A program made the translations under genes and the position numbers. Positions 5,762 to 41,931 of a stretch of 64,000 bases of DNA are shown in pieces. Source of the DNA: Desulfosudis oleivorans (GTDB taxonomy: Bacteria; Desulfobacterota; Desulfobacteria; Desulfobacterales; SURF-7); assembly GCA_020723305.1 (NCBI GenBank), contig DYJC01000001.1, positions 124,001 through 188,000 of the forward strand, written 5' to 3'. The notes under the pieces were generated by a model that had not been told where the DNA came from, searched no databases, and saw nothing but the letters and a program-made list of their open reading frames with translations. The stretch's first letter is position 1, and the number at the start of each line of letters is the position of its first letter.

Positions 5762-9080
<3,319 letters not shown>

Positions 9081-9088
<8 letters not shown>

Positions 9089-9488
9089 GTGGCACCAGTC
9101 CCAGAAGATGGAGCTGTTCCAGAAGTTTTTCCTTTCTGATCGGCTTGATAATATAGGCTTCACACTGCTCCTGGAAAGCCTGCATCAGGTTTTTGCTGTC
9201 AGACAGGGCTGTGGTCATAATGATTTTTGCGCTTTCGGAACCGGAAATATTCTTTTGCAGCTCAATCTCCCTGATCGCTTTCAGAGCGTCCTGGCCGTCC
9301 ATTTCCGGCATCATGATATCCAGGCAGATCAGGTCGTATCTTTCTCCATTGTCCAATGCATCTGAAAAAGCACGGACCGCTTCCTTTCCATTCACAGCAA
9401 CATCAAAATCTCCATAAGGGCTAAGCATTCCGCACAACACCTTCCGGCTTGTAAAATCATCCTCAACTACCAGAATTTTCAATCTCAT
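9081..9488 (-). CDS. CheY-like single-domain response regulator
   Basis: A 135-residue receiver domain with no output domain: acidic pair in VVEDD, phospho-acceptor Asp in LICLDIMMPEMDG, Lys in YIIKPI. The start MRLKIL has AGGAG 6 nt upstream and was preferred over an ATG 13 codons earlier. It is probably phosphorylated by CheA encoded just upstream and may act on the flagellar or pilus motor, or serve as a phosphate sink (inference). Its 3' end overlaps cheR. Confidence 0.92.
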
Positions 9489-9536
9489 ACATTCTCCTGA
9501 AAATATTAGTATGAATCGTTTCATCAAAAAACAGGA

Positions 9537-11729
9537 TTACGCAACTGCTGCCTGAAACAGACCTGCAATATCCAGAATCAAACCGACCTTACCGTCAGCC
9601 AGTATGGCGCTTCCAGCCAGACCTTTAATTTCTCTGAAGGTTTCTCCCAGATTCTTGATAACAAACTCCTCCTTGCCCAACAGTTCATCCAAAAGCAAGG
9701 CTTTTTGCACGCCATGATTTTCCGTGACAACCACAATCGCGTTCCATGGATCCGTCACATCTTCCTTTACATTGAACAACCGGCTGATCCGGACAAGCGG
9801 AAGCAGATTTTCCCGATGCCGGACCATCTCGCCTTTGTTTTCAACCGTATAACAATGTTTTCGGTCCGGACGATAAGACTGGATGATGGAATGGGTAGGA
9901 ATGATATATCTCTCCTTACCTACCCGAACCAGCATTCCCTCAACAATCGCCATTGTTAGGGGAAGCGAGATGGTGAAAACCGTCCCCTTTCCTTCCCTGG
10001 AATGTATTTCCAGCCGGCCCCGAAGCTTTTCAATACTCTTCTTAACCACATCCATTCCAACGCCACGCCCGGATATATCGGTAATCTCTTTGGCTGTGGA
10101 AAACCCGGGATGCATTATAAATTCATAAATTTCCTTTTCAGAAAGGTTCTCCCCTCTGGTGATCAGATTTCGTTCAATCGCTTTTTCAAGAATCCTGTTT
10201 TTATCCAGCCCCTTTCCGTCATCCTCGATTTCAATGACAATATTCCCTCCCCGCTGAAAAGCACGCAGATAGATCGATCCTTTTCTGTTTTTCCCGGAAG
10301 ACTCCCTTTCTACAGGTGATTCAAGTCCATGATCCACGGAATTCCGGATCATATGAACCATGGGTTCATACAATTCATCCACCACATTTCTGTCGATTTC
10401 CGTATCTTCACCGGACATGGACAGATCCGCTTCTTTTTCGGAATTTTTTGCAAGATCCCTTACCAGTCTGAACATCTTTTGAAAGGTGTTCTTGATGGGA
10501 ACCATCCGCATGGACATGGCAATTTTCTGAATCGCTGAAACCGCCTGCGTCACCTGGTTGAGCTGATGAAAAAATATCGGATTGTCAGCGGTCAATGTTT
10601 GACCTAGCTGCCTGAACATGGACTGGGCAATAACCAGTTCACCGGTCAGATCCACCAGGTTATCCAGCTTTTCCGTATCCACCTTGACCTGAAGGCTGGT
10701 TGCGCGTTTCCCTAAAGTCTGTGCTTTCAAGGCGGATTTGATTGCCTCGGGATCAACATTCTGCTCTCTGACCAGGATTTCACCCAACTTTTTTTCCGAA
10801 TGTTTCTTCTGTATCTTCAGGCTTTCTCTTAATCCTTTTTCAGTTATCACATCGGAATCCAACAGGATCTTTCCAAGCGGTATCTTATTTCCATCAGAAG
10901 TATGGACAGCCTGAATTTTTTCAATCAGCTTTTCAACATCAATAAGATCGAAAGATGTGGTATGTCTGGTTTCAAGACATTTTTCCACCTCCTCCAGCAT
11001 CAGTTTGAGCGTGTCGATGGATTCAAGAATAAGATCGGCAACCTCATCATTGATGGTCAGTTTTCCGGACCGGGCGCCATCCATCAGGCTTTCCGTGTGA
11101 TGACAGAACCGGTTCATCTTATCCAGTTTGAGGAACCCGGATACGCCTTTAATTGTATGGAAAGACCGGAATATGGCATTGATAGTCTCCATATCATCCG
11201 GATTCTGTTCCAACTTAATCAGATTGAGTTCGACGACTTCAAGATTTCCTCTGGATTCAACTACAAAGTCGCGAGTAATGTCAAGATCCTCATCTGTCAA
11301 CCCCGTGCTTCGTGCTGCCTCAGGTTTATCTTCATGAGCCTCCATACTTCCGGTTGCATTGATTTCCTTACCGGATGTTTTTTTCTGATCTTCCGGTATA
11401 TATCCAAGGCCTTCCAATATATCCGTGACATCAAACGTGAACTCTCTTCCGCTGCTGATATCCCTCCATATGGCCTGTAGCATTGCAACGCCGTCCCCCA
11501 GTGGTTTACTGTCCGTTACATCATTTAATACAAACCGGTCCAGGTATTGTTTCACTCCCTGAACAATATCCGAAAAAGCGATGCAAGGACTATTCGGCAT
11601 GCTTTTTTCAAGCTCTGAAATCGTTTCATACACCTTGCCCATTCCAGGGATGTCCTCAGCTTCAAGTATACAGATTTGAAGAGAAAGGCTTTCAATCATC
11701 CTTCCGATGCTGTTATCTTTCTCAGCCAT
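9537..11729 (-). CDS. cheA: Chemotaxis histidine kinase CheA
   Basis: A 730-residue kinase; start ATG with AGGAGC 5 nt upstream. The order is unusual: an N-terminal helical segment of about 140 residues precedes the Hpt domain (about 150-255, phospho-acceptor His191 in SFHTIKGVSGF). A linker of about 60 residues follows, then the dimerisation domain, the HATPase domain (N box MIRNSVDHGLES, DDGKGLD, GRGVGMD) and the C-terminal CheW-like P5 domain. It autophosphorylates under receptor control and passes phosphate to the CheY-like protein and CheB. The extra N-terminal segment resembles a degenerate second Hpt-like bundle without its His (inference). Confidence 0.95.
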   Translation of the reverse strand: MAEKDNSIGRMIESLSLQICILEAEDIPGMGKVYETISELEKSMPNSPCIAFSDIVQGVKQYLDRFVLNDVTDSKPLGDGVAMLQAIWRDISSGREFTFDVTDILEGLGYIPEDQKKTSGKEINATGSMEAHEDKPEAARSTGLTDEDLDITRDFVVESRGNLEVVELNLIKLEQNPDDMETINAIFRSFHTIKGVSGFLKLDKMNRFCHHTESLMDGARSGKLTINDEVADLILESIDTLKLMLEEVEKCLETRHTTSFDLIDVEKLIEKIQAVHTSDGNKIPLGKILLDSDVITEKGLRESLKIQKKHSEKKLGEILVREQNVDPEAIKSALKAQTLGKRATSLQVKVDTEKLDNLVDLTGELVIAQSMFRQLGQTLTADNPIFFHQLNQVTQAVSAIQKIAMSMRMVPIKNTFQKMFRLVRDLAKNSEKEADLSMSGEDTEIDRNVVDELYEPMVHMIRNSVDHGLESPVERESSGKNRKGSIYLRAFQRGGNIVIEIEDDGKGLDKNRILEKAIERNLITRGENLSEKEIYEFIMHPGFSTAKEITDISGRGVGMDVVKKSIEKLRGRLEIHSREGKGTVFTISLPLTMAIVEGMLVRVGKERYIIPTHSIIQSYRPDRKHCYTVENKGEMVRHRENLLPLVRISRLFNVKEDVTDPWNAIVVVTENHGVQKALLLDELLGKEEFVIKNLGETFREIKGLAGSAILADGKVGLILDIAGLFQAAVA

Positions 11730-11807
11730 GGCTGCTCCTGAATTGAGATCCTTTTTAAATTTCCTGGCGGATTCTTATCCTGCAAGGGTTTCTATTTATT
11801 TTTTGGT

Positions 11808-13802
11808 TCAAAAATCCGAAAAATTGTCTTCCATGGGTATAAACTTCTCCGGATCTGTTTCTTTATTTTTATGCGACAATAATGGTTTACTCCTGCCCTT
11901 TTTGCCTGAAAAATTCAAAGTATTCCCATGACCGGGGTTATGGAATACGGTTTTTTCAGAATAGTCTGATGCTGACGGGGCATTTCGATTCCCTGATCCG
12001 CCGACCATGGCAATCAGTTCGTTCACCGTTGCCTTCATCTGATTTGCCTGGGCATTCATTTCTTCGGAGGCAGATGCGGATTCTTCTGCATTGGCCGCAT
12101 TCTGCTGAACCACCTTGTCCATCTCGGTCACGGCCTTGTTCACCTGCTCAATTCCCTGGGCTTGCTCTTTTGATGCAGCCGAAATTTCTCCTACCAGCTC
12201 TCCTACCTTTTTGGCACTTTCCGCCACCTGAGAAAAAGCATCACTGGTCCGGGTCACCAGTTCCGAACCGCTGCCGACCTTCTTTACCGTACCCTCAATC
12301 AGATTAGCGGTATTTTTGGCTGCATCCGCCGCTCTCATGGCAAGGTTTCTCACCTCATCGGCAACAACAGCAAACCCTGCGCCCGCCTCTCCTGCCCGGG
12401 CTGCCTCAACCGCAGCATTCAATGCCAGAAGATTGGTCTGGAAGGCGATCTCATCAATAGTCTTGATGATCTTCGATGTTTCCTCGCTTGCCTTCGTGAT
12501 CTCCTGCATGGATATAGTCAACTGATTCATGGACTCATTAGCCTGTCCTACGATCCGATTGGCCTCTTTCATCAAAGTATCGGCATGGCCTGCATTTTCC
12601 GCATTCTGCTTGGTCATGGAGGACATCTCTTCCAGGGAGGAGGAAGTCTCCTCGATGGATGCTGCCTGCTCGGACGCGCCTTCCGCCAGAGACTGACTGG
12701 AGGAGGATACCTGCCCGGATGCTGCAGAAACCTGCTCCGCGCCCTGATCAATCTGGCCGGAGATTCTTTGAAGGACCGTAATGATTCCTCTGGCAATCAA
12801 AAAAGCCAGTAGCAAACCGATAATAATAGCTGCAACTCCTACCGCCGTTACGTTTCGCTTAGTCCCAAATGCCTTTTCCAGCATCATCTGATCGGTCATA
12901 ATGTGCTTTCTGGCTTCGGCCCTGATCTCGTTCAACAGCTTCTGAATCGAGTGAAGGGCCGGAATCGTCTGTTTTGCATAAACGGTGTTTGCCGTCTGCA
13001 TCCCTCTGACCTTCCCATCATGCCATTTCAAGATATGATCGATCTTCTCCAGACATTCATGGGCCAATGGTTTGGTATTGTTCATATAAAAAATACGAGC
13101 CTCTTCATGTTTTCCTTCCTTGATCAGATCCTGGATGCTGATAACACTCTTATGAAGTCTGGTATGGGGCTCTTCCAGATCGCTCAGTAGTGCTGAGAAT
13201 CTGGGATCTTGTTGTCTCATCGTATTGATTTCAATAGTATTCATCCATTTTCCGAGACTACATTTTTGAGGATCAGTCTCAACATTTATTTCACGAAGGG
13301 AGAGATCCACAAACACATCTTTTACTTTATGTGTCCACACCAGATGATCTGTTTTTTTTTCCCGCAAAAAATTTCCAAATACTATATCTGTCCGCTGAAA
13401 ATTCTTGCTGATTTCAATGGCTGATTCATGCAACTTCCGGTGCGGCTCCTCGATATCCTTTAACAAGGTCGATAAAGAGGGAACAAGGGCCTCAGCATTT
13501 TTTCGGCCTTCACCATAATACCATTCACCAAAAGCGCATTTATGATAATCGGTCTCTACATCAAGAGAGGTGACTTGATCATCGGTTAACAGAGCATTGA
13601 CTTTTCCGGACCAGGAAAGATGATCAACTTCTTTTTGGGCCAAGTCAGCATCCAACTTGTTACCCTCAATCACCTGGGTGGCATTTGTAACAATTCCTCC
13701 GACACCCGTATAACTCAGCACGACAATTACGGCCAAAAAGGTAAGCACAACACCAAACCCAATGGAAATCTTTTTTCCAAAGGTCATGTTATTCCAATTC
13801 AT
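11808..13802 (-). CDS. Methyl-accepting chemotaxis protein with two N-terminal CZB-like domains
   Basis: A 664-residue receptor; GGAGAGGG precedes the ATG. One membrane helix at about 12-35 and another at about 318-340 place residues 36-317 outside the cytoplasm. This outer part holds two copies of the chemoreceptor zinc-binding (CZB) pattern: His61, Cys89 (C-x-F-G-x-W), His121 and His125; then His153, Cys181 (C-x-L-G-x-W), His213 and His217. The cytoplasmic half has the conserved receptor tip ([15 protein letters not shown]). CZB domains bind zinc through three His and one Cys and are usually cytoplasmic, sensing oxidants or zinc. It lies between cheW and cheA, so it probably feeds this CheA. 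Confidence 0.92.
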
Positions 13803-13899
13803 TTTTCCCTCTCCTTTTCTGGTTTAATTGTGATGAATTTCTTGTAAAATCATCAAAAAGCTGATTCCATGCAAATTAGCCGACACTCATCTCTCTATC

Positions 13900-14412
13900 T
13901 CAAGCTGCCTGACTGATACTCACCAGCTCCTCGCTGGTGAGTACTTTGTCAATATCCAAAAGAATCTTGACGCCCCCTTCCATCTTGGCCATGCCAAGGA
14001 TATAATCCGTATTCAGCCGGGCGCCAAAAGCCGGCGTGTCTTCAATATCATCTCCCTTGATGTTCAACACTTCCGATACGGAATCCACCACGATCCCGAT
14101 TTGAATGGTTCCGCTGCTCCCTTCGATCTCCACCACAATAATACAGGTCCGTTCCGTGTAAGCCATGGCAGCCATGCCGAACCGCAGCCGCAGATCCATC
14201 ACGGGAATCACCTTACCTCTTAAATTGATCACCCCTTTCACAAAATCCGGTGTCTGCGGCATGGTGGTGACATGCATCATTCCAATGATCTCCTTGATCT
14301 TCAGAATGCCAATCCCGTATTCCTCACCACCCAGTGTAAAGGTGAGGTATTTCCCTTCTCTGTCGGCAATGGCCTTCACTGTCTGGCTCATTACTTTGGT
14401 TTCGTCCGCCAT
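13900..14412 (-). CDS. cheW: Chemotaxis coupling protein CheW
   Basis: A 170-residue protein with one CheW domain (EEYGIGILKIKEII, GVINLRGKVIPVMDLR motifs), which bridges receptors and CheA. An exceptionally strong AAGGAGGT lies before the ATG. It is the first gene of the chemotaxis operon, 97 bp upstream of the receptor gene. The operon promoter should lie in 14413-14600, but I could not assign boxes. Confidence 0.95.
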   Translation of the reverse strand: MADETKVMSQTVKAIADREGKYLTFTLGGEEYGIGILKIKEIIGMMHVTTMPQTPDFVKGVINLRGKVIPVMDLRLRFGMAAMAYTERTCIIVVEIEGSSGTIQIGIVVDSVSEVLNIKGDDIEDTPAFGARLNTDYILGMAKMEGGVKILLDIDKVLTSEELVSISQAA

Positions 14413-14489
14413 TTTTTTTGACCTCCTTTTCTTCTTGGATTGTTTGGATCAATACAGACCGGACATTTCATGATTGTTTTTAAATAAGG

Positions 14490-14503
14490 CCCCTCAAGAG
14501 GGG
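14490..14503. repeat. Short GC palindrome upstream of cheW
   Basis: CCCCTC-AA-GAGGGG forms a perfect 6-bp stem in an otherwise AT-rich gap. It resembles the core of the G/C-run repeats at 33418, 34748 and 62231, and may be a degenerate member of that family or a terminator of the minus-strand gene ending at 14705. The rest of 14413-14704 shows nothing convincing. Confidence 0.35.
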
Positions 14504-14704
14504 ATTATTAGATTGTAAGGATTCGGAAAAAAGTAATTCAGACAGGCGCCATGACACAATGACACCATGAATCATCTTCAGCAATCATCCAGACAAACCT
14601 GCTGAAGTTATTTACCTCTAATTTTTGGAGATTTTTTACAACTCTGTAGGAGTGAAATATCGTGAGCTTGTTTAGAACGCATCATACCATAATGAGAAAA
14701 AATA

Positions 14705-15478
14705 TCAATGAATTGTTTTCTTTCTCGCAACTCCCACAAGGCCCAGTAATCCGGAACCGAAAAGCCAGATTGAAGTCGGTATTGGGACAGGTGGTGTCCT
14801 CTTTGTATCAAAGACCCTTGGATCAAAAACCGCAAACAGCCCATTTCCATTATAATTCACTGGAATATTTGCAAACTCATTATCTCCTGTCAGGGATACA
14901 TTGTTGCCATTATATACATACAGATTTGTTACATCCTTAAAAATCGGATGGTCGCTGTTTATATTAACAACAGTATTCATTATCCCATTATAATATGGCT
15001 CAAATCTCAGACCAAAATTCGTGAGAAAAGGATTCCACCTTGCGGCTTCCTTAACAGCCCTACCCAATCCGGTGCCGCCCGCAAGATAAACATTCCCGCC
15101 TTTTAAAACATATTGAGTCAGAACAGCGGTATCGGCAGGATTGCCGGCCAGAAAAATCCCATCATACTTCATAAGATTGTCCACAGTGAATTCTGCCTGA
15201 TAATTGATCTCCCACGAATGGCCTGCATTTGTCATGGCGTTGCCCAGCAATGTTTCCGTAAGGCCGAAATTCATTGAATATACTAAAAAATCACCAATGC
15301 CGCCACCGGTAAACCAGGAAGCGATATTGGTTGAAAATTTTTCTGCGCTGGGTGAGGTTTGAAAACCGATGTTGCTGAGTGTCCATTCGTCATTATTGAC
15401 GATAATCCGGCCGGCAAGGCCGTTTTGAATGGTTGCAATCAGAATGATAATGGAAAAAAATACTATCTTTTTTTTCAT
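14705..15478 (-). CDS. Secreted protein with PEP-CTERM-like sorting signal
   Basis: About 257 residues. Of two near ATGs, the second is preferred because AAAGGAG lies 7 nt upstream of it but only 1 nt before the first. An N-terminal signal peptide (KKKIVFF then a hydrophobic run to about residue 23) and a C-terminal tripartite tail (VPIPTSIWLFGSGLLGLVG followed by ARKK) match the PEP-CTERM type of exosortase sorting signal, with VPIP instead of VPEP. The middle part (YDGIFLAGNP, GGNVYLAGGTG) looks like a flavodoxin/glutamine-amidotransferase-like fold without a visible catalytic Cys. It should be exported and processed at the envelope. No exosortase gene is in this window. Its function is unknown. 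Confidence 0.75.
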   Translation of the reverse strand: MKKKIVFFSIIILIATIQNGLAGRIIVNNDEWTLSNIGFQTSPSAEKFSTNIASWFTGGGIGDFLVYSMNFGLTETLLGNAMTNAGHSWEINYQAEFTVDNLMKYDGIFLAGNPADTAVLTQYVLKGGNVYLAGGTGLGRAVKEAARWNPFLTNFGLRFEPYYNGIMNTVVNINSDHPIFKDVTNLYVYNGNNVSLTGDNEFANIPVNYNGNGLFAVFDPRVFDTKRTPPVPIPTSIWLFGSGLLGLVGVARKKTIH

Positions 15479-33296: not shown

Positions 33297-34080
33297 TCCC
33301 TTTTCATTTCCGGATGTTTCTGCCTATAAACATGACACTGTTCTGGAGTTATCTCAAAAAATACAACAGGATTCAAGTCATGAACCATAATCCCCCAATT
33401 GAGGGGTATCTTTTATTAATTCCCCCCTTGAGGGGGGCGCAGGGGGGTGTTCGCCCATATTTTCAAATACCTGCAAATAAAAACAATCCCCCCGCTCCAT
33501 GAATAATTTTAAGACTGCGTCGTTCAAACTCGCGGATAAGGGCTCGTAAACAAAAAACAGGATGTGAAAAAGCAATAGATCCTGAAGTGTGCCGATTTCC
33601 CTGATTTCAAATTACCGCCGTTCCGTAATGCTGTTTTTTGCCAACGATCCCTAATCCATTCAGACAGTGAACGACTCCGCTATAAAATCATTCATTCCGC
33701 TCCGACCACCTCATCCCATGCTCCGAAAAAATCGTAGGTTGCGGTTGAACGTTCCAGACCGTCGTATTTCATGATATCTCAATTGTTCTCACTAAAAGCC
33801 TTCCGGAGAGCAAACGCAATCGTGAAACCCAACACAGATCTGAACCTCTTAATTCATTTTTGAAGCATGCTGCTTTTAATTTATAAAGACTGAATAACGA
33901 TTTGTTATCATGTGAAAAAAAGTGTTGAATAATTTGGCACATGGAATATTATGCAAAAAATTGAAAAACAAAATTAAAATCAGAGAGAAGACAGAACTGG
34001 AATTCAATATTTGCCTCATAATTATAAGGGTTAATATCAGGATTAATTGATCTGTGAAGGAAAGTTCCGCCACTAAACAC
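33297..34080. other. Gene-free region between lhr and the BrnTA locus
   Basis: About 780 bp without a supportable gene. It consists mainly of copy A of the 560-bp repeat, with a degenerate G/C palindrome at about 33391-33406 just before it. From about 33875 it becomes very AT-rich, marking the left side of the accessory island. Confidence 0.6.
33410..33970. repeat. 560-bp direct repeat, copy A
   Basis: This segment recurs at 34740-35301 with a constant offset of 1330-1331 bp and high similarity throughout, with differences mostly single bases. It starts with the AATTCCCCCC-TTGA-GGGGGG motif and ends near a small ATAAC/GTTAT hairpin followed by A-runs. Minus-strand reading frames in the first 150 bp are shared but short and interrupted, so I do not call a gene. 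Between the copies lies the BrnT/BrnA pair. Confidence 0.85.
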
Positions 34081-34118: not shown

Positions 34119-34385
34119 ATGTTTGAATGGGATGAATCGAAGGCAAAAGAGAACAAATCCAAACATAGAATCTCGTTTGCCGATACATTTTCGGTCTTCG
34201 ATGACCCAAACGCAGTTACACTTGAGGAATTCCAGCGTGGTGAACAACGATATGTCACCATTGGAATGGATGCCTTTGGTCGAATACTGGTTGTGGTCTA
34301 CATGTGGCGAGGGGAAAATATCAGGATAATTTCTGCACGAAAAGCTGTGCGTTATGAGGTGAGACAATATGAAAGCGAAATATGA
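34119..34385 (+). CDS. brnT: BrnT-type ribonuclease toxin
   Basis: An 88-residue protein matching the BrnT family: FEWDESKAKENKSKH at the N-terminus, ADTFSVFDDPNA in the middle and IRIISARKAVRYEVRQYE at the end. BrnT is a RelE-like ribonuclease that stops growth when freed from BrnA. Toxin first, antitoxin second and a 17-bp overlap with brnA are typical of this system. No ribosome-binding site precedes the ATG, consistent with a leaderless transcript. Confidence 0.9.
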   Translation: MFEWDESKAKENKSKHRISFADTFSVFDDPNAVTLEEFQRGEQRYVTIGMDAFGRILVVVYMWRGENIRIISARKAVRYEVRQYESEI

Positions 34386-34623
34386 TTTCAGTAAAGGTCG
34401 CCGCGGTGCTGTGATCCCCACTCCCGGGAATAAAGTCAGAATCACGATTCGACTTGATCGTGACATTATTGACTGGTTTCGTTCCAAGGTTGAGGAACAA
34501 GGTGGGGGTAACTACCAAACAATGCTGAACGATGCCCTCCGAACATATATGGAGCATCAGGAACAGTCTTTCGAAGAAGTCATTCGCCGTGTCGTCCGGG
34601 AGGAATTGCATGCCGCTCAATAA
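34369..34623 (+). CDS. brnA: BrnA-type antitoxin
   Basis: An 84-residue protein overlapping brnT. The central KVRITIRLDRDIIDWFRSK segment is the ribbon-helix-helix-like DNA-binding part of BrnA, and YQTMLNDALRTYMEH its dimerisation helices. It should neutralise BrnT and repress the promoter at 34081-34110. Confidence 0.9.
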   Translation: MKAKYDFSKGRRGAVIPTPGNKVRITIRLDRDIIDWFRSKVEEQGGGNYQTMLNDALRTYMEHQEQSFEEVIRRVVREELHAAQ

Positions 34624-34739
34624 CCGGGGCGGCGAACCCATCACTCAAGTGGATAATTTGCCTTGCTCCCACAAACAAGGGATCTTCTTCATAATTCCCA
34701 CATTAAGGGGATATGCTTTAATAACTCCCCCTTGAGTAT

Positions 34740-35301
34740 TCTTTATTAATTCCCCCCTTGAGGGGGGCGCAGGGGGGTGTTCTCCCATATTTTCAAACAC
34801 CTGCAAACAAAAACAATCCCCCCGCTCCATGAATAATTTTAAGACTGCGTCGTTCAAACTCGCGGATAAAGGCTCGTAAACAAAAAACAGGATGTGAAAA
34901 AGTAATAAATCCTGAAGCCTGCCGATTTCCCTGATTTCAAATTACCGCCGTTCCGTAATACTGTTTTTTGTCAACGATCCCTAACCTGCTCAGACAGTGA
35001 ACGACTCCGCTATAAAATCATTCATTCCGCTCCGGGCCACCTCATCCCATACTCCAAAAAAATCATAGGTTGCGGTTGAACGATCCAGGCCGTCGTATTT
35101 CGTGACATCTCCATCGCTTCCACTGCAAGCATTCCGGAGAACAAACCGTAATCGTGAAACCTAACACTGATTTGATCCGCTCGTTACCTTTTCGATGTCT
35201 GCAGCTAATAATTTTGAAAAACTGAATAACAATTCGTTATTATATAAAAAAAGTATTGAATAATTCTCTGCATGTAATATTATGCGAAAAAATTGAGAAA
35301 T
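34740..35301. repeat. 560-bp direct repeat, copy B
   Basis: Second copy of the segment at 33410-33970. It ends 158 bp before the start codon of the 1460-residue ATPase gene, so it separates the BrnTA locus from the two-gene module. The hairpin AATAAC-N5-GTTATT near 35225-35241 is conserved between the copies. The region 34624-35459 holds no other gene that I can support. Confidence 0.85.
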
Positions 35302-35379
35302 GATCCCCCCCAAAAAAAATTTTGGAATTGAATATAAGACCACATCATAATGTGGGTTTGGTAACAAAAAAAATCACTT

Positions 35380-35401
35380 TACAATCAATGGGTTGATTGT
35401 A
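35380..35401. promoter_or_regulatory. Perfect palindrome upstream of the ATPase/HEPN module
   Basis: TACAATCAA-TGGG-TTGATTGTA, arms of 9 bp without mismatch, 58 bp upstream of the start codon. It is the only clear operator-like site in front of the module, which suggests a dedicated dimeric repressor. A TATAGT hexamer follows at 35404-35409, but no well-spaced -35 was found. Confidence 0.6.
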
Positions 35402-35459
35402 TGTATAGTCTTAATAAAAAATACATTAGCGCTTTATAAAATCTTGGGTTGTAGATATT

Positions 35460-38400
35460 ATGGATGAAAATAGTAATTTGAGTTCATTTCCCAATATGAA
35501 CGCTTTTAAGGCACTTCAAATTTCTGGAAAACCTGGTCAAGAAGTTTCTTTAAGCATAAAAAATGAAGAAGGATTTTTTATAACAAAAACGGGCGTAATT
35601 AATGATTTCCTAAACGACGGAATGATAATTGATACTGCAGAAGGAACGGAGTATATTCCTGCTATTGAAATTTCAAAGTGGAAGATAGTTAAAATACAAA
35701 AAAATCATAACGATCAGAAACATTCAATTACCTATGAAACAACTCGAGCAGTTGGTCAGTCGGCTATTTTAAAAAATGACTTCGAAATAGAGAAAAATCA
35801 GAAACATGGTTATTATGAAAAGCAATTATCTGAAAATGAAGAATCGGCAATAGCACCTCTACCAGAACCAATAGAATTCGAATTGCTTTTCTCAGGCAAA
35901 CCATATATTTCAAAACCAGAACCATGCTTTGATATTCAAGGTATGGACGATGGAATTAAAAAAAATATCCTTAAATGGCGTAATCGTTTTCAATACGCAC
36001 AAAAAGTCCATGAACCCGCACGTATGGCTCAAGATGTAGCATCAATCTACGAACTTGCAGAAAGTTTGTTTAGCGCAGAGCTATATTTCATGGCAGGAGT
36101 TTTTGCTGACATTGGTGGGCTAGGTGCCCAACGTGCAAAAGATTGTTATCACAAAGCGGTGGAACTCGATCACCAGCCAGCTGCTGTTGCACTTGCAGCG
36201 TTATTCATTGAAGAAGAAAAATGGACTACCGCTGCTGAAGCTATAGTAAAAGCTATATGTCTTAAAAGTGATGATGATAAAATTGCTCTAGTACGAGCAC
36301 TGGGACAATGTCTTCTGCGAACACAAGAACACAAGGTTAATGGATTGGGTTTATTACTATCCTGTGACTTAGATGATCAAGCTTTAAACCTTACGAAACG
36401 TCTAATTGCTATTACCGTTAAAGATGACCCTATCGCTTATAAAGCCGCTTTAAATTGTGATATCATTGAATTACGAAAAACAAAAATAGGAAATGACCTC
36501 TTCCCTTGGGTTGATGAAAAACCTTCAGTATTAAAACAAAAAAAGGAAGCTTGTTATCAAAAAGATAAACTCAAATCAGAAGATAGATACAGAAATGGAT
36601 ATATTTCTGCATTTTATGCTAACAGAAATTTTGGATTTATAGTAGAGAATTCAACTGGCCAAACTTGGTTCTTTCACAAATCGTCTGTCGAAAGTGCGAC
36701 GCTTTTAAGCAATCTAATCGAAGGTAAATATGGGCAGGACATCATCTTTAAGGGTAAACCCGAAACAATTTCAGGCCGATACCCATTGGCTTCAAGAATT
36801 AGCATCCATTCAGAACTCACTTCTATAGAAAATGAGTTCAAACAACGAGCCCCATTAAATGTTAGACTTTTAGGCATACCTAAGGATGGAAGTTATTATG
36901 CTAAAGCAAAAGAAGCGGAACAGCTAGATCAACTGGAAAAGGCTGATAATTATTTTTATGAAGAAATTAATCGAAAAGGAAAGCATTATAAAAGTGCGAT
37001 AAAAGATCTCGCTACTCTTAGAAATAGAATGGGAAGACCTGAAACAGCTATAGAAGTATTAGACAAATATAGAGATGAGTACGATTCAGCAGAGGTTAAC
37101 TCATTAGATCAGATGAAGATACAGTTCTTTGTCAAAGCAAAACAATATATTGATGCAGCAAAATTACTATCTCAGACTGCAAAAACAACTTATCCAAAAT
37201 CAAAAAAAATCGAATACTTGCGGCAAGAGGCCTATTGTTATTTCGCTGCAGGTAAATTTGAAGTTGCAATATCAAAATTGGAGGCATTACCAAAAGACAG
37301 TGCTACCACAACTCTTTTAGCTAAAGTAAAACAGGCATTAGAAAATGGACTCTACGGTGTTGCATTTGGCGAATTAATTGATGATGAGCCGCTTTCAAGT
37401 TTGGCATTAGGCCTTTCTGTCATGGCAAGAACGCATTTAGACAAATGTGTCTTTAAAGGTACCGATGAAAGATCAAGAGAAAAAGGACAGTTTGAAAAAA
37501 GAGATTATGACCAAGTAAATAGGCTTTTATCCAACATCAAAGGCCGTCGACCCAGAGACCGAGCAGATTATTTAATTTCCTTAGCAGCATTATGTGAGAA
37601 AGTTCCAGATTTCGAGCGACATACTCAAATGCATTCTTATTTAATGTGGTATTTTGCCGCGTTAGCTGAAGCAGCAATGAGCGAAAATTTAGACATAGAT
37701 GTTGTAAGATGCTATTGTATTGAATCTTTGAGGTTGCACTCACCTTCTGAACGAAAAAATCTCGAAAATCCATGGGTTTTGTTACTTGGTACTTATCTTT
37801 CTCAAAGCATTGGAGCCAATGCTCTGCTTGACCAAGCTCGTGACGACTATGGTGCATCACTTTTTACTTTATTTATGAGTAATATGGATGATTGGAAATA
37901 TTTTTTAAAAGATGCCTCTTATTATAAGTTGCATGTACCAGTGGCCTTTAAAGAATTAGAAAGACATATTGGGAAATTTACTTTAAAATTAGAATTTCAG
38001 ATTTCTATCGAAAAAGAAATATCTCGAAATAAAATAATAGAAAATGAATTTAGAGGTCTTTCAAAACCCTCTTTTTCTCTCGATTTTTTGCGAAGATCAA
38101 TCGAAAGCCTAACTGAATGCTCGAAACACACTTTATTTAAATTAGACTCAGAAAGAATAAAAACAACAGTAAATATCTACAGGCAATGTGCAGAATATCT
38201 CCAAGAACGTGACTTTCGAGAAAAAGAAGCTAAATATTTACGTCTTGAATCTGATATAATAAGAATTCTTAAAGACATAAGTCAGCATCCAACAATCTTA
38301 TCTTTCGAAAAAATATTTCCAATTTTAGAATCTTTACGCGAATCTTCGCGTTGTGATTTTGACCAATTAGAAGATGCGAGCCCAGAATTGAATTTACGAA

Positions 38401-39842
38401 ATATTCTAGATAATGATTTTTATGTCATAAATAATGATTATGTTTCTCTACGACTTTTGCTTGAATCTAAAAATGAATACACTCCTGCCATTGAAGCCAT
38501 CAGTCTTTCGATTGAAAATGGAGAAAACCACCCTTGTCACTCACCGGAACCATTATATGGAGGACAGCGGCGAGAAATTGAATTAAATATTAAGCCTACC
38601 CAAAAACAAATTAACGATAGTGCTTTTACTGTCCATATCGTAGTTGAATATCGCACTCGTAAAGGAAAATCCGAAAAATCATTACCTTTCCCGATTGCAG
38701 TAAGGTTAGGAACATTAGATTCTTTTATTGAAATACCAAATCCTTATGGTCGTTATGCAGGAGGTTCACCAGTTGATGAAGATTATATGTTTTTTGGGAG
38801 ATCTGAAATAATTAGCCAAATAATTAATTACATAACAACAGGAGCTCAAGGTCAATGTTTTGTGATATATGGGCAAAAACGTTCAGGCAAATCATCAGTT
38901 TTGAACCAAGTTGAAAAAAAAATATATGATAAGGTCTTTTTTGTTAAGCTATCAGCAGGCAACTTTACTCCCGGTAGATTATGGATATCATTTGCACGTT
39001 TTTTAATCCAAGAAATGAAATTTCAATTAGAAGACCGGCGATATGAAGTAGAAATAAATTGGCCTTCATCAGTGGAAGTTGAAGATGGCCCCATTGAAAA
39101 AATAAGAGAAGTTTGCCGTTTCATTAAACAATTGGAATTTAAAATTGTTATTGCAATTGACGAATTCACATATGTTTACGAAAATGCAAAGGATGATGTA
39201 GAGTCCTTTATGCGTGGCTGGAAAGCTTTGCTTGAGGCAAAGACTTTTAATGCCATTTTGGTTGGTCAAGATACAATGCCAAGGTTCATTCAAAATTATC
39301 CTAACGAATTCGGTTTCATACACGATGTCCGGCTCTCTTATCTTAACAAAGATGAAGCTGAGAATCTTGCATCTTTACCTATATTATACCAGGAAAATTG
39401 TCGTTATCGAGGTAAGGCACTTGATAAGCTATTCTTTTTAACCGCTGGGAATCCATATTTTTTACAAATCACTTGTGATAGGCTTGTCCGGCATCTTAAT
39501 GCTCAACGTGCACCTTTTGTTACTGAGGCAGATATCGATCAAGTTGCCCGAAACATGACTTTAGGTGCGGATGCTTTGCCTCCCGAACGCTTTGATGCAC
39601 TAGTGACTGCTGCAGGTGAAAAGGTTGATATTATACCGAGAAAAGATCTTTGGCTACTATTAACACATATAGCCAAAGAATCTCTGCAAACTGGGTGGTG
39701 CTATCGTAATGCATTATCCGAATTTCCAAATAGTGATAAAGCATTAAAAGATTTAATGAATAGGAAAATATTAATCGCAGATAGCGAGCGTGTTCGAATT
39801 CAGGTAATTTTATTTACAAAATGGCTTCAAGCAAATCAGTAA
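35460..39842 (+). CDS. Large STAND-type ATPase with LSm-like and cold-shock-like domains
   Basis: A 1460-residue protein of no named family that I recognise. Domains seen: residues about 18-78, a small beta-barrel pattern (GQEVSLSIKN, TGVINDFLNDGMII, EYIPAIEISKWKI) resembling LSm/SH3-like folds; about 150-350, alpha-helical TPR-like repeats; about 376-450, cold-shock-like domain (YISAFYANRNFGFIVEN and WFFHKSSV standing for RNP1 and RNP2); about 480-1000, more TPR-like helices; C-terminus, P-loop ATPase with Walker A GQKRSGKS (1138-1145) and Walker B IAIDEF (Asp1234, Glu1235), then a winged-helix-like tail. Base use is much more AT-rich than in flanking genes. The partner HEPN gene starts 18 bp downstream. 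A sensor-ATPase role in defence is inference. Confidence 0.8.
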   Translation: MDENSNLSSFPNMNAFKALQISGKPGQEVSLSIKNEEGFFITKTGVINDFLNDGMIIDTAEGTEYIPAIEISKWKIVKIQKNHNDQKHSITYETTRAVGQSAILKNDFEIEKNQKHGYYEKQLSENEESAIAPLPEPIEFELLFSGKPYISKPEPCFDIQGMDDGIKKNILKWRNRFQYAQKVHEPARMAQDVASIYELAESLFSAELYFMAGVFADIGGLGAQRAKDCYHKAVELDHQPAAVALAALFIEEEKWTTAAEAIVKAICLKSDDDKIALVRALGQCLLRTQEHKVNGLGLLLSCDLDDQALNLTKRLIAITVKDDPIAYKAALNCDIIELRKTKIGNDLFPWVDEKPSVLKQKKEACYQKDKLKSEDRYRNGYISAFYANRNFGFIVENSTGQTWFFHKSSVESATLLSNLIEGKYGQDIIFKGKPETISGRYPLASRISIHSELTSIENEFKQRAPLNVRLLGIPKDGSYYAKAKEAEQLDQLEKADNYFYEEINRKGKHYKSAIKDLATLRNRMGRPETAIEVLDKYRDEYDSAEVNSLDQMKIQFFVKAKQYIDAAKLLSQTAKTTYPKSKKIEYLRQEAYCYFAAGKFEVAISKLEALPKDSATTTLLAKVKQALENGLYGVAFGELIDDEPLSSLALGLSVMARTHLDKCVFKGTDERSREKGQFEKRDYDQVNRLLSNIKGRRPRDRADYLISLAALCEKVPDFERHTQMHSYLMWYFAALAEAAMSENLDIDVVRCYCIESLRLHSPSERKNLENPWVLLLGTYLSQSIGANALLDQARDDYGASLFTLFMSNMDDWKYFLKDASYYKLHVPVAFKELERHIGKFTLKLEFQISIEKEISRNKIIENEFRGLSKPSFSLDFLRRSIESLTECSKHTLFKLDSERIKTTVNIYRQCAEYLQERDFREKEAKYLRLESDIIRILKDISQHPTILSFEKIFPILESLRESSRCDFDQLEDASPELNLRNILDNDFYVINNDYVSLRLLLESKNEYTPAIEAISLSIENGENHPCHSPEPLYGGQRREIELNIKPTQKQINDSAFTVHIVVEYRTRKGKSEKSLPFPIAVRLGTLDSFIEIPNPYGRYAGGSPVDEDYMFFGRSEIISQIINYITTGAQGQCFVIYGQKRSGKSSVLNQVEKKIYDKVFFVKLSAGNFTPGRLWISFARFLIQEMKFQLEDRRYEVEINWPSSVEVEDGPIEKIREVCRFIKQLEFKIVIAIDEFTYVYENAKDDVESFMRGWKALLEAKTFNAILVGQDTMPRFIQNYPNEFGFIHDVRLSYLNKDEAENLASLPILYQENCRYRGKALDKLFFLTAGNPYFLQITCDRLVRHLNAQRAPFVTEADIDQVARNMTLGADALPPERFDALVTAAGEKVDIIPRKDLWLLLTHIAKESLQTGWCYRNALSEFPNSDKALKDLMNRKILIADSERVRIQVILFTKWLQANQ

Positions 39843-39860
39843 TAACCATGGTGGTGAAAT

Positions 39861-41390
39861 ATGTCTCTAAATAATCCATATATTGGTAGGGGCGAACCAG
39901 TCAGCGGAAGTCGTTTGGTTGGTCGAAATCATATATTAGAGCGATTAAGTAAAAGAGTTAGTTCAGGAGCGCACTGTAGCATTGTCGGCCTACCCAGAAT
40001 TGGAAAAACAAGTGTCGCACGAGAAACGCTTAAGATTGTTTGCTCTTTAAATTCAAACATAAAGACTGGATACGTTACCTTAGATGCGATAAGCGGTCCG
40101 ATCCAGGCATATAAAAGAATTATCAGCGAGATTTCAGATGATGATTTTAATGACCAGTCTTTAATGAATTGCATTACTCATGACGATACATATGAGGCAT
40201 TACTAAAATTTCTTCGTAAAAGAAACCGTTCTGGCCATAAAGCTGCCGTCATAATTGACGAAGTAGACGGGATTGCCAGAGATAGTTTTTTGGATTCACA
40301 GTTATTTGTCTCCCGATTGCGAGAACTGGCGAATGATCGTGATCGATATGGGGTAACATTTATTTTTTTATCTCGAAGATCACTTGATATGATACAAGGG
40401 GTTGTAGATTGCTCAACCTTGGCTGGCTTATGTGAGGTGACTTATTTGCAGCCGTTGGACCGTGAAGCAATTGATCAACTTACGTCGCGTAGCCCAATAA
40501 AAATTGAAGCTAACAGCATAAACGCATTATGGAATTTTACTGGAGGTCACCCTTTTCTATCTGAAGTAGTAATGTGCGAAGCTGTTGAGATTGCAAAATC
40601 CTTCATAGATGTCGAAACTGTTGAAAATGCGCAGCATTTGCAATCTCACGAATTTACCAATTATTACTGCCAAATACAAAACATTTTCACATCAAATAAT
40701 ATGTTTGATGCATTATGTGAACTAATCGTTGGGCCACGATGGCGAACAATTGATTTCCATACAATAATATTACTTAAACATTATGGGTTAATCAAAGCCT
40801 ATGATGATTCAGATAATAGTAGATTAAAATGTATGTCTCAGCATTTAGAAGAATACTTAAAGCTTATAAGCCGTACAACTCCCTCTTGGTATTTGTTAGG
40901 TGAAACAGAGCGTCAATTGCGTATACTAATACAAGATAAGATGCAAGAGGCCTTTGGAGATGATTGGCTTGAGTCAATTAAACAGAGACATCCAAAAAAA
41001 GAAAAATCTTTAGACAATCTTATTCAACAAAAACAAAGAGAGAATAAAATTTTTGGCGATGCAGCATCGGATTTTATTTTGGACTATGCTTACATTGGTG
41101 AATTGAAGGATCTTTTATTTGCTGAATGGGACAATTTCCGTTCAATTCTTGGAAATACAAAAGGGGATTGGGAAAAAATGTTTCAAGCACTAATGAAAGT
41201 GCGTAATCCTATGGCACACTATAGACCTATACCTTCAGAAAAACTTTTAGAAGCTGAGATAGCTTGTAAGTCGTTGCTTGCAAAATTAACTGGCACCAGT
41301 AAATATAGCAATGATAATTTTTCAGCACTTAAAACATCCCCAAGCGCATCACCGAACAGCAATTCCACTTCACTTCATTGCCACCGATGA
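39861..41390 (+). CDS. AAA/STAND ATPase with C-terminal Swt1-type HEPN domain
   Basis: A 509-residue protein with GGTGG before the ATG. It starts NNPYIGRGEPV, like the lead-in of the ATPase domain in its neighbour (NPYGRYAGG). Walker A GLPRIGKT (43-50), Walker B AAVIIDEVDG (Asp133, Glu134) and sensor-like FIFLSRRS are intact; GGHPF is typical of STAND-like ATPases. Residues about 345-480 match the Swt1-type HEPN domain: ETERQLRILIQDKM, FGDDWLE and RNPMAHYR with R448-x4-H453, the HEPN ribonuclease motif. The last 30 residues (Ser-rich) look like read-through of flanking DNA. Predicted to be the RNase effector of the pair. Confidence 0.85.
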   Translation: MSLNNPYIGRGEPVSGSRLVGRNHILERLSKRVSSGAHCSIVGLPRIGKTSVARETLKIVCSLNSNIKTGYVTLDAISGPIQAYKRIISEISDDDFNDQSLMNCITHDDTYEALLKFLRKRNRSGHKAAVIIDEVDGIARDSFLDSQLFVSRLRELANDRDRYGVTFIFLSRRSLDMIQGVVDCSTLAGLCEVTYLQPLDREAIDQLTSRSPIKIEANSINALWNFTGGHPFLSEVVMCEAVEIAKSFIDVETVENAQHLQSHEFTNYYCQIQNIFTSNNMFDALCELIVGPRWRTIDFHTIILLKHYGLIKAYDDSDNSRLKCMSQHLEEYLKLISRTTPSWYLLGETERQLRILIQDKMQEAFGDDWLESIKQRHPKKEKSLDNLIQQKQRENKIFGDAASDFILDYAYIGELKDLLFAEWDNFRSILGNTKGDWEKMFQALMKVRNPMAHYRPIPSEKLLEAEIACKSLLAKLTGTSKYSNDNFSALKTSPSASPNSNSTSLHCHR

Positions 41391-41506
41391 GCTTATATTT
41401 TTATGTCCTTCCAGTATAAGCCTGTATAGCATGAAAAAGCCAGTATGGAGTGTTTATTTTGGCTTTTATGCATCTATCAGGGGACTGATCAACGATCAAT
41501 ATCAGC

Positions 41507-41539
41507 TTGACAAAAAAAATATATTATGTACAATTGTAC
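41507..41539 (+). promoter_or_regulatory. vapC promoter with palindromic operator
   Basis: TTGACA (41507-41512), 16-bp spacer, TACAAT (41529-41534). The perfect 12-bp palindrome GTACAATTGTAC (41528-41539) covers the -10 box and likely start point. The toxin ATG at 41542 is 7 bp after the -10 box, so the mRNA should be leaderless. The same layout is seen at brnTA. Confidence 0.7.
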
Positions 41540-41541
41540 CT

Positions 41542-41931
41542 ATGAAATTAATCGCTGATACAAATATATTTATAGCAGTGGCCTTAAATGAGCCTGAAAA
41601 GGATAAGATCATTCGACTTACGGAAGGCCATGATTTAATTGCTCCTGATGTTTTGCCATTTGAAATTGGGAATGCATTGACAGCAATGTTCAAAAAAAAA
41701 TCCTTAAAAAAGGAAGAGGTCGAGTCCGCATGGGAGATTGTTCAACAAATACCGGTTGACCTGAGACATACAAACATCAAGTCGGCATTAAGCATCGCGA
41801 TTAAACAAAATCTGTATGCATACGATGCTTATTTTTTGGAATGCGCAGAAAACCTTCGTTGCCCGCTTCTAACACTTGACCTTGGAATGCTAAAAGCAGC
41901 ACGGGAGCTGGGAATAACGATTTTGGAGTAA
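41542..41931 (+). CDS. VapC-like PIN-domain toxin
   Basis: A 129-residue PIN-domain ribonuclease. The acidic metal-binding residues are Asp6 (LIADTNIF), Glu41 (FEIGNAL), Asp95 (YDAYFLE) and Asp113 (LTLDLGM). The start at 41542 is set by PIN alignment and by the promoter immediately upstream; the frame stays open upstream but without coding character. Toxin precedes antitoxin, the reverse of the common vapBC order. Confidence 0.9.
   Translation: MKLIADTNIFIAVALNEPEKDKIIRLTEGHDLIAPDVLPFEIGNALTAMFKKKSLKKEEVESAWEIVQQIPVDLRHTNIKSALSIAIKQNLYAYDAYFLECAENLRCPLLTLDLGMLKAARELGITILE

Follow-up and report, generated by a model that had tools for sequence, protein, structure and literature searches.

A two-gene STAND-HEPN module whose sensor carries a small Sm/SH3-type barrel and a cold-shock domain, a candidate for nucleic-acid-triggered surveillance

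The window analysed here is a stretch of 64,000 nucleotides from Desulfosudis oleivorans (Desulfobacterota; GenBank assembly GCA_020723305.1, contig DYJC01000001.1, positions 124,001 to 188,000 of the forward strand). It carries two adjoining genes, a sensor gene and a partner gene, that together form a module recognisable by sequence in many phyla. In the sensor, a small N-terminal Sm-like barrel, a cold-shock domain (CSD; found in 25 of 42 relatives, the window included) and TPR repeats precede a STAND-type ATPase; the partner couples a STAND ATPase to a HEPN domain and looks, by sequence, like a putative RNA-cutting enzyme. A first-pass annotation, made from the letters of the window alone, had proposed two RNA-binding barrels in the sensor. 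We conclude that residues 376–450 are a cold-shock domain, which likely binds nucleic acid, and that the N-terminal domain is a small Sm/SH3-type barrel, for which canonical RNA binding is unlikely.

Because the window alone left both barrels unsettled, relatives were gathered. The Pfam CSD model (PF00313) matched residues 379–421 of the window's sensor at 19.5 bits, against a cut-off of 27. The cut-off was passed by the relatives P0003 (28.4 bits) and L066 (31.4 bits), and 18 of 20 N-terminal regions matched the model at E ≤ 1, the best at 1.4e-8. A profile built from 19 family CSDs retrieved 53 distinct PDB sequences at E ≤ 0.1 (best E 6.9e-11), nearly all of them cold-shock proteins or domains by name. 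An AlphaFold2 model of sensor residues 1–465 (20 rows, mean predicted local distance difference test score [pLDDT] 79, predicted template modelling score 0.50) contained an OB fold at 376–449, with strands at 376–386, 391–396, 402–406, 427–433 and 443–449 and a helix between strands 3 and 4. Superposed with VIA, the modelled CSD matched CspA (2l15) with Z 9.8 and a root mean square deviation (rmsd) of 2.0 Å over 70 residues, and CSD–RNA complexes of YBX1 and YBX2 with Z 9.2–9.4. The top Foldseek ranks were likewise CSDs (best E 1.2e-3; CspA 1mjc, 1.4e-3); since no Foldseek E value was better than 1.2e-3, the sequence profile is the stronger evidence. Profile and superposition together establish as a cold-shock domain the barrel that the first-pass annotation had read from RNP1- and RNP2-like motifs at 376–450. 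In a search of the class with a two-row sensor profile (A1), the CSD columns found, among the matches listed, many open reading frames (ORFs) of 71–75 residues, a length typical of free-standing cold-shock proteins. The family CSD profile also matched PDB 9arw_H, 'CSD domain-containing protein Cmr6' (E 1.6e-8).

Among the 19 family CSDs, position 391 is aromatic in 17 (11 Phe, 5 Tyr and 1 Trp), 393 is Phe in all 19, 404 is aromatic in all 19 and 406 is His in 15. The RNP aromatics are therefore kept across homologues (17–19 of 19), with no sign of the loss that had been named beforehand as a point to check, and nucleic-acid binding by this domain is likely on the strength of these residues. 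Its net charge, in counts that take in some flanking residues, is basic in 13 of the 19 and acidic in 5. We consider it probable that the CSD binds single-stranded RNA or single-stranded DNA.

The N-terminal domain was also modelled alone (82 residues, 29 rows, mean pLDDT 83.9). It formed a helix (13–22) followed by strands at 28–34, 40–51, 54–59, 62–67 and 71–78. Foldseek matched the model mainly to Hfq chains, weakly (best E 0.013, prob 1.00), and VIA superposed it on Hfq of M. jannaschii with Z 8.4 and rmsd 1.4 Å over 54 residues. The best VIA match was GatD (Z 9.2), and a designed SH3 barrel, PafBC and ribosomal chains, presumably of uL19, also lay within 1 Z unit of Hfq. In the PDB, the barrel profile found a biotin-ligase SH3-like domain (2.7e-5), an archaeal Lsm (7e-5) and Hfq (6.6e-4), and Pfam matches among the 29 barrel members went to RimP-SH3 (13), DUF2642 (8), LSM (6; best E 3.9e-5), SM-ATX (6) and others. 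Because Hfq, GatD and other SH3-like barrels are nearly tied and the biotin-ligase domain is slightly ahead of Lsm, we assign the domain to the small Sm/SH3-type barrels. The LSm/SH3-like barrel first placed at residues 18–78 is thus retained as a barrel of this type, with a helix and five strands at 13–78, and its membership of the LSm family is not proven. Structure prediction and fold comparison, the check set beforehand, accordingly yielded both an OB fold and an Sm-like barrel.

The Sm1 motif contains an Asp/Asn pair. In the register taken from the alignment with 6tfl, the Asp is present in 5 of 29 rows and the Asn in 2 of 29, and the window has neither. Each of the 29 barrel rows is acidic, the median net charge being −3 (some flanking residues counted; no known Hfq alongside). 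Given this acidity, and given that the Sm1 Asn is missing in 27 of 29 rows, the N-terminal barrel is unlikely to bind RNA in the canonical Sm fashion, and such binding is not supported; that the barrel binds RNA in any manner seems to us improbable. The original proposal of two RNA-binding barrels therefore holds for the CSD, which keeps its RNP aromatics, and not for the Sm-like barrel.

Both genes carry the motifs expected of them. Every one of the 42 sensor ORFs has both Walker motifs, A and B, intact (the L072 fragment was dropped and L088 contributes two sensor ORFs). Among 38 partners, 35 have Walker A and 37 have Walker B; of the three without Walker A, L064 and L074 are ORFs that start downstream of the motif. 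Beyond the P-loop motifs, the window's sensor has nSTAND1 and ATPase_2 Pfam matches below cut-off. No NCBIfam model matched it at E ≤ 0.01, and the P0003 sensor matched mainly TPR-type models plus one CspE and one ATPase model. The Rx4H motif of HEPN is present in 35 of 39 partners, as RNPMAH in the window. The exceptions are L069, in which the motif has decayed, L091 and L092, which end upstream of HEPN, and L089, where the motif is gone and a kinase-like domain has been added. The last of these, a Thermogemmatispora partner (L089, 11747–14077), is a natural effector swap; its C-terminal kinase-like domain has a best NCBIfam E value of 1.8e-41, below that model's cut-off. The Pfam matches to AAA_22 and HEPN_Swt1, together with the Walker and Rx4H motifs, confirm at the level of sequence that the barrels are joined to a STAND-type ATPase and that the adjoining gene encodes a HEPN protein, as the first-pass annotation had read them, and this arrangement is kept across distant homologues.

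Sensor and partner distances were correlated (r 0.954, 37 pairs), also among non-redundant pairs (r 0.82, n = 16), and in neither case were any of 2000 permutations as high. We conclude that sensor and partner are co-inherited; because the permutation leaves shared ancestry in, the correlation does not show contact.

The relatives behind these counts came from several searches. Among 395 genomes of the same phylum, one full-length sensor relative was found besides the window (G214). A 50-residue match in G364 was kept outside the relative set, and weak matches in G042 and G005 were rejected, the ORFs there being other ATPase proteins. The class search (389 genomes) added G574 and G547, which have the barrel, the STAND ATPase and a HEPN partner and no CSD, and the remoter G557. 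Matches at the STAND level in G679, G730, G589, G606, G711, G422 and G733 lie outside the relative set, and the matches listed past the first dozen or so, mainly to CSD or TPR columns, were not counted as relatives. Against a collection of genome contigs, a two-row alignment retrieved no loci and a four-row sensor alignment (A3) retrieved 39. These come from Planctomycetota, Chloroflexota, Bacillota, Latescibacterota, Poribacteria, Bacteroidota and Actinomycetota, from a cyanobacterium (Okeania), from a metagenome-assembled genome (MAG) of Desulfatirhabdium (L096), from a weak archaeal locus and from some unplaced bacteria. A partner match was found in 36 of the 39 and none at L088 and L097; the partner matches at L098 were weak and it was left out of the partner set. 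L051 (G547) and L096 are the same contig, counted once. L052 (G557), a zinc-ribbon relative without a partner match, lies outside all counts. In this remote relative (5883–15200) zinc ribbons replace the barrel, the protein in the partner position is a TPR protein with an end that is HATPase-like by eye, and a third gene has an RNWSAH motif without a Pfam match. In the Desulfatirhabdium MAG (L096, 10588–12293) the partner is followed by an ATPase gene and a TOPRIM-like gene, a PARIS-like pair named by eye.

The two barrels are not equally distributed. Apart from the window, 41 loci were searched with a hidden Markov model (HMM) of the Sm-like barrel, which matched the sensor start at 36; 28 of the 36 were in its training alignment (A5), and those outside it were L064, L072, L074, L076, L082, L084, L090 and L097. 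The five misses were L078, which is cut by a contig end, L091, L093, L095 and L098. The CSD HMM matched the sensors at 24 of the 41 loci, 18 of them in its training set and the others being L064, L072, L076 (weak, E 8e-4), L082, L086 (weak, 1e-4) and L097. It found no CSD in Poribacteria, Streptomyces, Actinomadura and Okeania sensors or in the two other Desulfobacterales sensors, among others. The loci negative for CSD include L078, with its contig end, and L084, a short ORF, and also L091, L093, L095 and L098, which have no barrel match either. Since the barrel is matched at 36 of 41 loci versus 24 of 41 for the CSD, we conclude from these profile searches that the barrel is the more constant part and the CSD an accessory, not obligatory, one. 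A second, weaker CSD-like copy occurs in tandem in the sensors of L087 and L090 (Tissierellia) and L094 (Clostridiales).

The module probably reached this genome by horizontal transfer (Table 1). The nearest relative of the window's pair is a Pirellulaceae pair, from another phylum, with 53% identity in the sensor (from residue 640 onward) and 57% in the partner, on a starred branch of the tree. The two other Desulfobacterales sensors are placed elsewhere. Several deep branches of the tree are weak or long, and the program flagged one long-branch join to which the window belongs. In none of 3 other genomes of the genus was the partner found, and in none of 11 other genomes of the family the sensor; these genomes are drafts of 66–99% completeness. 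In 1-kb bins, guanine-plus-cytosine (GC) content is 33–38% from 35 to 42 kb, 47–51% beyond 33 and 42 kb and 44% between; by gene it is 35% (sensor) and 37% (partner) versus 48.5–50.5% in the flanking Lhr-like, FMN-reductase-like and aldehyde-oxidoreductase-like genes. Of two genomes of the same genus, G753 is homologous only from position 41901 rightwards, and left-side homology to G533 reaches 35358, inside a repeated stretch. Because of the low GC content and these two breakpoints, we regard the stretch between about 35.4 and 41.9 kb as a probable insert.

Table 1. Features of the sensor–partner module in the window
Feature	Position	Strand	Description
Sensor gene	35460..39842	+	1460 aa ORF; Sm-like barrel - helical/TPR - CSD - TPR - helical region - STAND-type ATPase
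Sm/SH3-type small beta-barrel, sensor residues 13-78	35496..35693	+	Helix and five strands (profile, Pfam, model, Foldseek, VIA)
TPR-like helical repeat region, sensor residues 137-347	35868..36500	+	AlphaFold2 model; VIA matches to TPR and Sel1 proteins
Cold-shock domain, sensor residues 376-450	36585..36809	+	RNP1-like NFGFI 390-394; RNP2-like WFFH 403-406
Second TPR region, sensor residues 478-625	36891..37334	+	Pfam TPR weak in the window, strong in the homologues P0003 and L066
STAND/AAA-type ATPase core, sensor residues 1111-1271	38790..39272	+	Pfam AAA_22 29.5 bits (cut-off 27); Walker A GQKRSGKSS, Walker B IAIDEF
Partner (effector) gene	39861..41390	+	509 aa; 18 bases separate sensor end from partner start
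ATPase domain of partner, residues 18-231	39912..40553	+	Pfam AAA_22 34.4 bits (cut-off 27)
Swt1-like HEPN domain of partner, residues 350-474	40908..41282	+	Pfam HEPN_Swt1 39.4 bits (cut-off 27.5); RNPMAH residues 448-453 (41202-41219)
Low-GC block, probably horizontally acquired, ends approximate	35359..41900	.	GC bins and same-genus alignments G753, G533

The surroundings of the insert hold further genes. Just upstream of the module lies a BrnT/BrnA toxin–antitoxin pair (34119–34623; Pfam 95 and 47.9 bits), flanked by the two copies of a direct repeat some 580 bases long and 87% identical (33387–33968 and 34721–35300); in G533, sequence related to this repeat precedes the Lhr-like gene. A PIN-domain gene (41551–41931; Pfam) directly follows the partner. 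The homology to G753 begins in its 3' end and continues across a gene that by eye resembles a Phd antitoxin. Neighbouring genes of the relatives were scanned with PADLOC in 94 ORFs from 26 of the 39 loci, with at most four per locus and with near-duplicate loci, some very long ORFs and pieces of sensor or partner dropped; AriA models matched 2 of the 94.

The nearest published kinds are the nSTAND2 two-gene systems, HEPN-STAND-CSD proteins and the CoCoNuTs; what follows refers to the accessible portions of the papers concerned. One example of the second kind carries the prefix Desac_, which we take to be that of Desulfobacca. The nSTAND2 operons are mobile and of two genes, with STAND in both and GT4 or HEPN effectors, and for STAND operons of two genes with a HEPN effector a counter-invader role has been predicted (Kaur et al., 2021; PMC8195603). 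Like them, the module is a mobile operon of two genes whose products both contain a STAND NTPase, and it has HEPN, which is among their commonest effector domains. It differs in that the effector-side STAND has eroded NTP motifs there, a described feature, and intact ones here (Walker A 35/38, B 37/38), so that we rejected straight nSTAND2 membership; the accessible description of nSTAND2 makes no mention of Sm-like or cold-shock domains (PMC8195603). Abi2/Swt1-type HEPN domains have been described with STAND-ATPase, TPR and S1 (for example Desac_1927), and HEPN-STAND proteins with a C-terminal cold-shock-like OB fold are mentioned separately (Anantharaman et al., 2013; PMC3710099). These proteins share with ours the Abi2/Swt1-type HEPN, the STAND-ATPase, TPR and, in some, a cold-shock-like OB fold. 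They differ in being reported as domain combinations rather than as a two-gene module, with no Sm-like barrel in the accessible description (PMC3710099). The architecture, initially called unusual, is borne out as a kept combination, and its novelty is softened by that 2013 record.

S1 and cold-shock domains also appear in a published list of the components of NTP-dependent conflict systems (Kaur et al., 2020; PMC7159879). In the CoCoNuTs, for which RNA targeting is predicted, CSD-like folds are joined with HEPN and McrB GTPases; the shared features are CSD-like OB folds, an NTPase and, in some types, HEPN ribonucleases, and the differing ones are their McrB-type GTPase, a McrC homologue, coiled coils and in some a helicase, with no STAND in the accessible description (PMC11090510). 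No McrB-type family was among the Pfam matches of sensor or partner at E ≤ 1, so that the NxD GTPase feature of CoCoNuTs was not found. DefensePredictor validates other HEPN systems, and none in the accessible part of that report resembles the sensor–partner pair (PMC13092281). In PADLOC-DB, PDC-M34B matches the HEPN region of the partner (residues 343–459, E 8.8e-11) but covers only about 120 of its 509 residues. For the window's sensor, the top PADLOC hit is PDC-S01 (E 0.001, 48 residues of the ATPase); P0003 and P0006 have none at E ≤ 0.001, and no model covers the sensor. Our literature search, over sources partly accessible, found no description of an Sm-like barrel on a STAND sensor or of this two-gene plan.

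We propose, tentatively and as an account a little short of probable, that the pair is a mobile two-gene STAND-HEPN surveillance module. Nucleic acid or a ribonucleoprotein would bind the N-terminal half of the sensor, where the CSD, in the window's branch, would bind single-stranded nucleic acid, most likely RNA, and the TPR scaffold would read the binding. This would release the sensor ATPase, which may then co-assemble with the intact ATPase of the partner; the HEPN domains of the partner would pair and cleave RNA, leading to dormancy or abortive infection. The Sm-like barrel, widely kept and acidic, is probably structural, oligomerising or ligand-binding. A defence role is what we infer, by analogy, from the HEPN family, the mobility and the published systems, and 'RNA recognition upstream of RNA cleavage', in the words of the first-pass annotation, we likewise infer. 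That RNA is the actual trigger is possible, though we lean against it. A fuller version, in which an NLR-like STAND receptor would read RNA via its CSD and, with a second STAND ATPase, unleash an RNA-cleaving HEPN while a ring of acidic Sm-like barrels templates assembly, giving an RNA-sensing, RNA-destroying immunity in many phyla, is unlikely as a whole.

Several observations weigh against the proposed module. At E ≤ 0.1 the CSD HMM gave no match in 17 of 42 relatives, and 12 of these 17 bear the barrel; the CSD therefore cannot be the sole reader of the trigger. In the CSD itself, the Trp of CspLA-type cold-shock proteins aligns with residue 384, which is Ala in the window and aromatic (Phe) in one listed row, and the Phe that follows His in typical CSDs is Lys or Arg in 11 of 19. 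Foldseek gave no match at E ≤ 0.001 for the CSD model or the barrel model. The HEPN motif is missing in 4 of 39 partners. No relative was found in the viral contigs scanned or in the phages scanned with L066 as query, and the plasmids, queried with the window's sensor and with L066, gave only one 10% partial match, on an Acinetobacter plasmid. The neighbour scan says little: 102 PADLOC families matched at least one of the 94 ORFs at E ≤ 1e-10, the 25 families listed each in 2–3 members, and the scan had no control set.

These points bear differently on the alternatives. The barrels might hold RNA or deliver it to the HEPN nuclease, so that they serve substrate targeting and no sensing, and the TPR repeats would read the trigger, for example a phage protein. 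This would suit a CSD that sits beside a putative RNase yet is not found in 17 of 42 relatives, and TPR regions are indeed present in the sensors; it has to contend with a CSD and a HEPN that are on different polypeptides, in a putative complex, and we regard it as some way from likely. Avs-type sensors are protein-sensing STAND receptors, and the barrels could instead be structural or protein-binding parts of such a receptor, RNA playing no part in recognition. The acidity of the Sm-like barrel (29/29), its lack of the Sm1 Asn (27/29) and the 12 barrel-bearing sensors without a detectable CSD all agree with this, but the RNP1 and RNP2 positions kept in CSD-bearing sensors are difficult to account for if the OB fold is purely structural, and we find such a receptor rather unlikely.

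Host RNA metabolism makes wide use of cold-shock and Sm-like folds, which favours a host device for stress or RNA quality control (cold, transcription arrest) that is not directed against invaders; nor does the neighbour scan, with no control set, show any enrichment of defence genes beside the module. Patchy presence, low GC content and cross-phylum kinship speak against it, as does the grouping of the partner's HEPN family with Abi2/Swt1 in the accessible part of the 2013 report (PMC3710099), and we rate such a device as very unlikely. Finally, short beta patterns might be alike by chance, with no real OB or Sm-like domain. The window's score below the Pfam CSD cut-off (19.5 vs 27 bits) and the Foldseek result would fit, but chance similarity is ruled out for both barrels by the Pfam matches of the family, the PDB profile matches, the models and the superpositions. 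For the CSD it is already contradicted, not least by the superposition on CspA, and the idea is scarcely credible.

To our knowledge, the bacterial STAND/NLR-like sensors with known triggers read phage proteins. Here, the receptor half of a STAND-type protein contains a cold-shock domain and an Sm-like barrel, and a putative HEPN RNase is inherited together with this protein. This makes RNA activation of a bacterial NLR-like receptor directly testable, with the natural CSD-free and HEPN-free members of the family as built-in controls. The module, which occurs in many phyla, is a testable candidate for nucleic-acid-triggered immunity.

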